Assembly (NCBI GenBank): GCA_016937255.1
Contig: JAFGWG010000102.1
Coordinates: 1 to 54,739 of the forward strand
DNA length: 54,739 nt
Direction of reading: 5' to 3'
Origin: Bacteroidales bacterium
Lineage (GTDB): Bacteria > Bacteroidota > Bacteroidia > Bacteroidales > DTU049
This document shows, in pieces, positions 42,270 to 43,797 of the stretch; position 1 is the first letter of the stretch; each line of letters begins with the position of its first letter. The notes under the pieces were generated by a model, which saw only the letters and a list, made by a program, of their open reading frames with translations, was not told the origin of the DNA and made no database searches. Both the position numbers and the translations under genes were made by a program.

Positions 42270-42301
42270 TTTGCCATACATGAGCCCGATTTGTATATTT
42301 G
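42270..42301 (+). promoter_or_regulatory. Promoter with -33 TTTG and -7 TATATTTG
   Basis: TTTG (42270-42273) and TATATTTG (42294-42301) are separated by 20 bases, a near-perfect Bacteroidota housekeeping promoter. It lies 56 bases before the ATG of the lipoprotein gene at 42357 and probably drives both it and the radical SAM gene. Confidence 0.7.
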
Positions 42302-42356
42302 CGATTAGTAAACAATAAATTAGTTGCTACGGCGCTGTTTATATAAACTTAATCTT

Positions 42357-42731
42357 ATGTCACTCAGGTGGAGAAAAATTAAACGTAAAGTACTTGGATT
42401 TGTAAGCTTCTCAGCAGCATTATTCATTTTTCAAGCATGCTATGGTGCACCACAAGACACGCAGAGCGATATAATCGTGCAAGGAACAGTTAAATCTGAT
42501 TCCACCGGGCAAACCGTGGAGGGCATTAAAGTTACTTTCACTGAAACAGATCAGTATGTTATAACCGATTCCTCTGGAGCATTCTACTTTTATCTTCCAG
42601 AATACAACAATTATCCACTGCGTTTTGAAGACAATGATTCCACTGAAAACGGATCATTCAATACTTTCGACACTATCATTCAGGGCACTCCTGCAGCACC
42701 TATTGAAATTACATTGAGGCAAACTCCTTAA
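42357..42731 (+). CDS. Radical SAM-associated putative lipoprotein (TIGR04134-like)
   Basis: From the ATG at 42357 the product has 124 residues; a TTG 33 bases earlier is unlikely. A basic N-terminus (SLRWRKIKRKVLGF) leads to a hydrophobic stretch and a lipobox-like FQAC, giving a mature start CYGAPQD. The rest is a short regulatory beta-sandwich of the carboxypeptidase type (IIVQGTVKSDSTG, YVITDSSGAFYFYLP). I recall the family TIGR04134, short Bacteroidota lipoproteins with a CYGxP start paired with a dedicated radical SAM enzyme (TIGR04133), exactly as here with 10 bases between the genes. It may be the substrate of that enzyme, but this has not been shown to my knowledge. Confidence 0.8.
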   Translation: MSLRWRKIKRKVLGFVSFSAALFIFQACYGAPQDTQSDIIVQGTVKSDSTGQTVEGIKVTFTETDQYVITDSSGAFYFYLPEYNNYPLRFEDNDSTENGSFNTFDTIIQGTPAAPIEITLRQTP

Positions 42732-42741
42732 AACCAATATT

Positions 42742-43797
42742 TTGCTCAACCGCTTCCGGAAAGCCAGTTTTAGACATTTTCGTGAAAACGAAGCCCAATT
42801 GCACGATCTCATGTATTTATTTTGGGAATGCACTTTGCGTTGCAATCTCAATTGTTTGCATTGCGGGTCCGATTGTTCTAAAGATGCTTCGGTTCCTGAC
42901 ATGCCTTTCGATGATTTTCTGAATGCAATTTTACCCCTGCATAAGCATTATAAACGCGATGCTATAATTGTAATCATAACCGGTGGTGAGCCTTTAATGC
43001 GAAAAGATTTGGCAGAAAACGGTCGGCGACTTAGAGAAAATGGATTTCGCTGGGGTATTGTCACCAACGGCATTTTGTACGATAAAGAAAAACAAAACGA
43101 ATTGCTCAATGCCGGTCTGGGATCCATAACCCTGAGTCTGGATGGATTAGAAGACAACCACAATTGGCTGCGCGGTACATCTGTAGCCTATAAAAAAGCG
43201 CTGAATGCGTTGGAATTAATAGGTTCTCAGAAAAGACTCAATGCAGATGTGGTTACATGTGTAAACCAGAGAAATTTCTCAGAACTGGATAAAATTAGTG
43301 ACTTAGTTCACCAGCATGGATTAAGTCAAAGGCTGTTTACCATTAGCCCAATTGGCAGAGCAAAAGACAACCCGGAATTATTCCTTACGAATGCCCAAAT
43401 GAAAGAGATGATGGATTTCATTGTTGAAAAAAGAAAAGAAGGACACGAAATTTCATTTAGCTGCGAAGGATATACGGGAAAATACGAAGAACAAGTCAGA
43501 GAAGGGTTTTTCTTTTGTCGAGCAGGCATTCATATTGGATCAATTCTCGCCGACGGAAGCATTGGTGCCTGTCCAAATATCGATCATAGCTTTGTGCAGG
43601 GAAATATTTACAAAGACGATTTTGCAGATGTCTGGATGAGCCGTTTTCAAGATTTCCGCAACCGCAGCTGGGCAAGAACCGGAATATGTGCCGATTGCAA
43701 GGAATTTAAGTATTGCAATGGAAATGGCTTGCATTTATGGGATGAAAAGCGAGATGAGGTTTTGGTTTGTCACCATAGGAGGATATCTGATTTATAA
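42742..43797 (+). CDS. Radical SAM/SPASM domain protein (TIGR04133-like)
   Basis: The 351-residue enzyme carries the radical SAM cluster CxxxCxxC at Cys34, Cys38 and Cys41 (TLRCNLNCLHCGSDC), then TGGEPLMRKDL and SLDGLEDNHNWLRG. The C-terminal SPASM domain has cysteines in FFCRAGIHIG, GACPNIDH, GICADCKEFKYCNGNG and VCHH, which would hold further iron-sulfur clusters. SPASM proteins typically modify peptides or proteins. The start is a TTG; the first ATG (codon 24) would cut the conserved region FRENEAQLHDLMYLFWECTL. It follows the lipoprotein gene by 10 bases under the same promoter. The modification and substrate are unknown. Confidence 0.9.
   Translation: MLNRFRKASFRHFRENEAQLHDLMYLFWECTLRCNLNCLHCGSDCSKDASVPDMPFDDFLNAILPLHKHYKRDAIIVIITGGEPLMRKDLAENGRRLRENGFRWGIVTNGILYDKEKQNELLNAGLGSITLSLDGLEDNHNWLRGTSVAYKKALNALELIGSQKRLNADVVTCVNQRNFSELDKISDLVHQHGLSQRLFTISPIGRAKDNPELFLTNAQMKEMMDFIVEKRKEGHEISFSCEGYTGKYEEQVREGFFFCRAGIHIGSILADGSIGACPNIDHSFVQGNIYKDDFADVWMSRFQDFRNRSWARTGICADCKEFKYCNGNGLHLWDEKRDEVLVCHHRRISDL

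Follow-up and report, generated by a model that had tools for sequence, protein, structure and literature searches.

Radical SAM/SPASM enzymes of the family TIGR04133 are encoded beside genes for several exported scaffolds that have a Tyr-Gly-x-Pro (YGxP) motif in common and do not form one family, and the enzyme very probably targets this motif in its neighbours. The locus studied here comes from a Bacteroidales bacterium (DTU049; assembly GCA_016937255.1, contig JAFGWG010000102.1, forward strand), and 'the window' denotes the whole 54,739-nt stretch of DNA that was analysed. As a complete explanation, we judge tyramine excision at the YGxP of exported proteins to be somewhat likely. The pair would then be a two-gene protein-modification module, in which a cytosolic enzyme would act on the Tyr-Gly-x-Pro of a newly synthesised protein bound for export, ahead of that export or in its course, and would cut part of the tyrosine from the protein backbone (loss of C8H9NO). 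Lipidation and export would leave a reactive ketoamide beside the lipid anchor in the window's class of substrate, and on a linker, coiled coil or tail in other classes, where it could plausibly serve as a covalent protease-binding or protease-resisting element. We infer Tyr-Gly as the reaction site, excision as the reaction, its timing and its role, the excision chemistry on the grounds of motif likeness and kinship. An otherwise unexplained pair of families would thereby yield a prediction open to direct test, a single mass shift at a single dipeptide.

The gene pair of the window

The pair described in the initial annotation, a 124-residue lipoprotein with an enzyme 10 bases on, agrees with the two open reading frames (ORFs) found here and the 10-nt gap between them (Table 1). 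A promoter-like element of the form TTTG-N20-TATATTTG, which we take to be the Bacteroidetes promoter consensus, precedes the pair, as does a sigma70-like match (10/12) at 42271-42299. The element was previously called a strong promoter; the match itself is there, but the window has 4 occurrences of the pattern where 2.7 would be expected, which leaves 'strong' unproven. An Rfam scan of the window gave a single match, a tRNA at the window's end.

Table 1 Features of the lipoprotein–enzyme pair, with positions in the window
Feature	Position	Strand	Details and basis
Upstream glycosyltransferase gene	ends 42250		
Promoter-like TTTG-N20-TATATTTG	42270..42301	+	Pattern match upstream of the pair; weak alone
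Lipoprotein ORF, predicted substrate	42357..42731	+	124 aa; mature CYGAPQD
Signal peptide, residues 1-27	42357..42437	+	Ends FIFQA ahead of the lipobox Cys; read from sequence
CYGAP	42438..42452	+	Lipid cysteine C28 plus YGxP (Y29 G30 A31 P32)
Transthyretin-like beta domain	42468..42716	+	Pfam CarbopepD_reg_2; Foldseek
Radical SAM/SPASM enzyme ORF	42742..43797	+	351 aa; first start codon TTG
CNLNCLHCGSDC	42841..42876	+	Radical SAM CX3CX2C plus family-invariant C45
SPASM domain	43516..43770	+	C259, C277, C316, C319, C325, C343; Pfam SPASM, column comparison

The smaller protein has the n-region, h-region and lipobox cysteine of a predicted bacterial lipoprotein, as read from its sequence (MSLRWRKIKRK...FIFQAC). 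Pfam CarbopepD_reg_2 scored 31.6 bits on it, just under the cut-off of 32.2, and the AF2 model confidently predicts a transthyretin (TTR)-like domain (pLDDT 90.7), for which Foldseek ranked teneurin first, then carboxypeptidase N/D TTR-like domains, with the SusC N-terminal extension (NTE) domain in tenth place (TM values of the matches about 0.53-0.57, by query length). Nif11 gave no match in this lipoprotein. Filing it under TIGR04134 was ruled out by its score, 28.9 bits against a curated cut-off of 39.8; by position and adjacency it behaves as a member of that family would, without being classified there.

The enzyme is a full member of TIGR04133 (468.1 bits, curated cut-off 425), and other profiles scored far lower (for example, NirJ2 at 118.1 bits and TIGR04103 at 99.8 bits, the latter under its cut-off of 725). 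Its AF2 model is confidently of the SPASM type (pLDDT 92.5), with SkfB, BlsE, CteB (5why) and SuiB as the solved structures nearest in fold. In the TIGR04133 alignment, C34, C38 and C41 of CX3CX2C are invariant (146 members), as is CNLNCLHCGSDC both there and in an alignment of 28; the CGS part of CNLNCLHCGSDC is common to the TIGR04103 and TIGR03913 members compared; the invariant residues specific to TIGR04133 are C45, D169, C173, C241, R206 and H331. The canonical SPASM motif has seven cysteines. Pfam SPASM matched the enzyme at 36.6 bits (cut-off 21.5), and column comparison identified six of the seven, the final X3C of CX2CX5CX3C being absent.

A mobile Tyr-Gly-x-Pro motif in exported neighbours

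Enzymes were collected by phmmer (E ≤ 1e-60), which gave 148 from 180 records, and the five loci with <350 nt upstream were left out, giving 143; one gene was counted twice (L003 = L067), so that both totals overcount by at least one. Partners were chosen by a rule that ignored the motif (same strand, adjacent, signal-peptide-like with a lipobox-type cysteine); an initial, stricter signal-peptide filter hid real partners, and its loosened version yielded a partner at 127 of the 143 loci. YGxP was present in 108 of these 127 blind-chosen partners, against a mean of 2.0 and a maximum of 8 in shuffled sequences. The earlier suggestion that the small gene beside the enzyme is its likely substrate is supported. 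The dipeptide YG occurred in 120 (shuffles: mean 42, maximum 62); because shuffles often give YG and rarely YGxP, YG alone is weaker evidence and YGxP is strong. By hand, in a check made with the motif known and thus not blind, a YG-bearing exported neighbour was found at 136 of the 143 loci and none at seven (L049, L057, L058, L111, L116, L135 and L142); the enzyme matches at L057 and L058 are partial only, and the genome that holds L116 (G565) has a second enzyme locus, L097, with an EYGTP partner. With a single procedure applied to all loci, a YGxP-bearing secreted neighbour was found at 125 of 148 enzyme loci, compared with 1 of 28 loci of other radical SAM enzymes and 11 of 108 loci of other large ORFs, with means of 3.0, 1.8 and 2.4 candidate ORFs per locus, respectively.

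Related loci are not independent events, which a test by clusters answers, although short proteins can hide homology: after masking of the motif, single-linkage clustering placed 125 partners in 24 clusters, with YGxP in 15 and YG in 21, against a chance expectation for YGxP of 0.26 clusters (one random shuffled member per cluster). The classes of scaffold included lipoproteins with CYGxP directly after the lipid cysteine; proteins with xYG(S/T)P in a linker ahead of a TTR-like domain; coiled-coil-like proteins with internal VYGSP or VYGGP; tiny lipoproteins, often in tandem, with KYG(V/I/P)P in their tails; and proteins with AQYGxP past a signal-peptidase-I-like site, including sorting-tail proteins. 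Among the clustered partners, the residue ahead of Tyr was C (31), E (23), V (23), M (20), K (10), L (5) or others. The initial annotation had placed the motif as CYG after the lipid cysteine, which needs correcting: the motif is YGxP, mobile between scaffolds and also present in non-lipoprotein substrates. A motif specific to the lipid cysteine was ruled out, as YGxP shifts between scaffolds and positions.

The window's own genome holds three copies of the enzyme with three kinds of substrate: the CYGAP lipoprotein; an AQYGAP protein with a C-terminal sorting domain (G000:C145; L063:2573-4506); and a tandem of three small genes that each carry a pair of YG motifs close to the C-terminus, one of these motifs reading TEYGVVFPY (G000:C254; L064:49-2325). 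Elsewhere, lipoprotein-like genes beside the enzymes at L174 (upstream of 1974) and L227:175-456 have CYASQEP / CYAPAP where CYGxP would stand, and at both loci a YGxP lipoprotein is encoded further upstream; the genes with CYASQEP or CYAPAP are possibly decayed paralogues.

Conservation within the window's lipoprotein class was assessed with a domain-only query (residues 37-124, signal peptide and motif omitted). This search returned 138 distinct homologues, most of the sequences behind them having been chosen for a nearby enzyme, and just ahead of the domain 109 had YGxP, 16 had YG alone and 13 had neither. Six of these 13 came from genomes in which no enzyme was hit (L188, L190, L204, L209, L230 and L232) and four from genomes that have the enzyme (L174, L195 and L207, the last with two); for the other three (L099, L196 and L197) the clip stops before the motif position, and L196 and L197 do hold YG. 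C-Y-G was invariant in 35 aligned lipoproteins, partly by construction, these having been selected with a CYG-type pattern.

Co-occurrence, motif loss and kinship of the enzyme

In a sample of 393 genomes from the order, the window's own included, the enzyme was detected at E ≤ 1e-95 in 93 and over the TIGR04133 cut-off in 86; in a phylum-wide sample of 395 genomes, three were over that cut-off, again including the window's own. Within the order sample, 58 genomes had a TIGR04134 match over the cut-off and 54 of them had the enzyme (E ≤ 1e-95), versus 39 of 335 others; TIGR04133 and TIGR04134 co-occur far beyond chance. The pairing of the two families that had been proposed for this locus is supported; the window's lipoprotein itself scores under the TIGR04134 cut-off. 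The pairing also withstood a check of whether the lipoprotein is often found without the enzyme, which had been named beforehand as grounds for refutation: 67 of the 85 TIGR04134 matches that passed the cut-off in the order sample lay ≤3 kb from an enzyme, 14 lay elsewhere in enzyme genomes and 4 were in genomes where no enzyme hit reached E ≤ 1e-95, one of which (G636) does hold an enzyme homologue.

The enzyme was not found in the draft genomes G696, G758 and G618 (95%, 75% and 94% complete, respectively), in which, these being drafts, it could sit in a gap. In two of them the motif has changed: G696 reads AGNGSPYAKF versus DEYGTPSAKF in L077, its nearest compared relative (46% identical), and G758 reads EDNKTPHADY versus AEYGTPSADF in L097. 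The remainder of both proteins aligned end to end with the compared proteins, and both are still lipoproteins. Tyr-Gly thus goes with the enzyme, and in these losses (Tyr in G696, Tyr-Gly in G758), which are small in number, the flanking Pro stays; this suggests that Tyr-Gly, and not the fold, is what the enzyme needs. G618 has kept an AQYGAIE and a CYGSP protein, though no enzyme was found there. YG is retained by 13 (8 as YGxP) of the 14 over-cut-off homologues that sit elsewhere in an enzyme genome; the exception, in G521, has lost it, and two neighbour genes on one side of that homologue are the same as for the G758 protein.

The arrangement recurs in further records: a genome outside the order (G929) has the enzyme beside a CYGVP protein, with EYGSP and MYGAI proteins elsewhere in the genome; Parabacteroides distasonis has the pair with CEYGSP; and Phocaeicola massiliensis has it with CEYGTP, the partner lying downstream of the enzyme. 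Plasmid pTS1 of Treponema saccharophilum also carries the pair, with the partner TSCYGMP. On this plasmid (L181:2806-5098) the pair adjoins a serine recombinase whose annotation assigns it to the Mpi DNA invertase family, which hints at horizontal transfer and perhaps at phase variation.

A midpoint-rooted tree of 39 radical SAM proteins recovered TIGR04133 as one clade (100/100), sister (87/93) to a group comprising TIGR04103, TIGR03913 (GDL/DUF1843), the f19 family and an Agathobacter protein, and the two together stood apart from NirJ2, Ahb-type enzymes and MftC. Constrained topologies that joined TIGR04133 with NirJ2/Ahb (p-AU 0.013), or grouped it solely with TIGR04103 and TIGR03913 (p-AU 0.024), were both rejected. 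A consistent YG neighbour was not seen for members of the f19 family, so the motif cannot be assigned to the whole sister group. The proteins at L005, L006, L007, L008, L010, L012 and L013 belong to a Bacteroidota radical SAM/SPASM family other than TIGR04133 (two scanned members score ~200 bits on TIGR04103) and likewise show no consistent YG neighbour; L005 and L008 have a common short ORF with YGRP, ~0.75 kb downstream.

The radical SAM/SPASM enzyme on a plasmid of Agathobacter rectalis scores 235 bits on TIGR04103, under the cut-off. Immediately upstream of it lies a short ORF without annotation (L185:3713-3919), found while seeking the motif, that ends in GPVMYGTGVRM and is a possible XYG peptide substrate in a gut member of the Lachnospiraceae. 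On a plasmid of Tropicibacter oceani (L226:1174-3948), a TIGR04103/TIGR03913-like enzyme with ~90 extra N-terminal residues is directly followed by a gene for a trypsin-like peptidase, a neighbour that may be meaningful, given that ketoamides are reported as protease inhibitors.

The proposed reaction and its nearest known systems

Tyramine excision by the splicease PlpXY takes place at XYG, with MYG and LYG as natural sites; the leader is dispensable, and sites have been reported at N-terminal, internal and C-terminal positions. Splicease tags include PIRPLYGLPI, PIRPGYGLPI and AVAAGYGVVFP. When FtsZ was tagged, 2 of 16 variants were modified, both with PIRPGYGLPI, and GYGVVFP tags were unmodified, so context matters and a bare YG-x-P need not suffice for PlpXY. 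The PlpX-type sequences LYGLP and GYGVVFP are closely similar to EYGTP, KYGVP and EYGVVFP at Bacteroidales loci, and this likeness is our main ground for proposing the same chemistry; CYGAP in the window likewise contains the XYG of the spliceases. The initial annotation knew of no described chemistry for the pair: the TIGR04133 and TIGR04134 numbers or model names indeed appeared in no paper of the literature searched, and what it missed is the XYG match to tyramine-excising spliceases. Scott et al. 2022 (Chem, 10.1016/j.chempr.2022.09.017) reportedly surveyed such residues, and a Chem Sci 2024 paper is said to deal with tyramine splicing; the 2022 survey may already cover this system.

Some other chemistry at the YGxP site (a Tyr-centred crosslink, oxidation, a decarboxylation-like reaction or epimerisation) is unlikely, with several observations nonetheless in its favour. 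SPASM enzymes are chemically diverse, the best folds here include sactipeptide, streptide and PQQ-type enzymes, and TIGR04133 has the invariant residues of its own given above and lacks a SPASM cysteine. The PlpX-type HMM score is moreover not the highest: the enzyme is by this measure no closer to the PlpX type than to heme types, which we count against the proposed explanation, together with the rejected grouping with TIGR04103 and TIGR03913, the f19 members, the lack of a PlpY-like match, the missing SPASM cysteine, the CYASQEP and CYAPAP paralogues beside enzymes, the exceptions in G618 and G521, the 7 of 143 loci without YG and the unmodified FtsZ variants. Excision is favoured over these chemistries by the published splice site, which is alike in its YG, its free preceding residue and its following Pro or VVFP, and by the position of the family in the tree beside the PlpX-containing group; a crosslink at x is disfavoured in particular, since x can be Gly (6) or Pro (9) among the clustered partners and the residue before Tyr is free.

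Other readings would assign the motif or the enzyme a different part altogether. The motif sits at positions between the beginning of the mature protein and close to its end, as might a docking tag for a modification elsewhere in the substrate; nothing else common to the scaffold classes was seen, however, and the Tyr itself is lost, with the flanking Pro kept, in two genomes in which no enzyme was found, making a tag of this kind quite improbable. The relation of TIGR04133 to heme and cofactor enzymes could instead mean that the enzyme makes or changes a small molecule, with the exported protein as accessory or receptor. This is improbable too: a search of 114 downstream ORFs found no conserved third gene downstream of the enzyme (97 clusters, the largest with 5), and unrelated scaffolds would all need to keep YGxP. 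It is scarcely credible that CYG is a lipoprotein sorting or export signal with an incidental link to the enzyme; the window's class does have the motif directly after the lipid cysteine, but it is also found in linkers, coiled coils, C-terminal tails and AQYG sorting-tail proteins, and two homologues that have lost it, in genomes with no enzyme found, are still lipoproteins.

If tyramine excision at YGxP is the reaction, a rare protein-splicing chemistry would serve exported proteins of many related bacteria, and backbone splicing would extend beyond RiPP-like peptides to become a common edit of exported proteins in a major order represented in gut and rumen. It would also suggest that anchored proteins bear protease-reactive groups. 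A role in covalent protease contact or in protection is a guess, drawn from the protease-inhibiting activity reported for such ketoamide residues (PMC10373908). The wider picture, in which a lipid-bearing N-terminal Cys would be joined to a ketoamide warhead at the membrane, with tails, coiled coils and sorting-tail proteins modified likewise and one family tagging part of the secretome, is tentative and falls somewhat short of likely.

Among known systems, the NCBIfam pair TIGR04133/TIGR04134 (hypothetical equivalogs) is matched by the window in that its enzyme is a full member and its gene order is as in most loci; the NCBIfam names carry no chemistry, and many of the partners found here are other scaffolds. 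SkfB, CteB, SuiB and PqqE are among the closest solved folds and differ in substrates and products. These enzymes presumably carry N-terminal recognition domains or partners, whereas in its AF2 model the window's enzyme shows no more than a helix of some 20 residues ahead of the fold core. In the sister group, the GDL/DUF1843 system (TIGR03913) likewise combines a radical SAM enzyme with small peptides, many of which have XYG near the N-terminus; these peptides differ in being short and without a signal peptide, and some have YA or YM instead of YG. Peptide starts seen at four such loci (L186:3043-3743, L184:2204-2917, L009 and L011) were MLYGGA, KPYGVAI, MPYGVAIREA and LYGVGIREA, and DUF1843/GDL peptides may be spliceotide-type substrates too.

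The closest comparison is with PlpXY. We take IPR026482 to be nif11-class maturase 3, TIGR04103. A search for extra TIGR04103 members among plasmids found one, and a Nostoc plasmid encodes a full TIGR04103 enzyme (853 bits) together with a Nif11 precursor that ends in GGRGSIALYGLPPELF (ALYGLPPELF) and a 71-aa protein where PlpY might stand. PlpX has been placed in IPR026482 (PMC11002830). With the 71-aa Nostoc protein as query, its identity as PlpY being assumed, no PlpY-like protein was matched at E ≤ 1 in 146 loci, a search that a diverged RRE could escape. Unlike PlpXY, the window's system has no PlpY-like protein seen and no Nif11 or NHLP leader, its substrates are exported with signal peptides, and one SPASM cysteine is missing; if it does excise tyramine, it would represent a splicease-like family without a leader or visible RRE partner, useful for labelling. 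What the two systems have in common is a radical SAM/SPASM enzyme, an XYG followed by Pro or VVFP, and a free residue before the Tyr.
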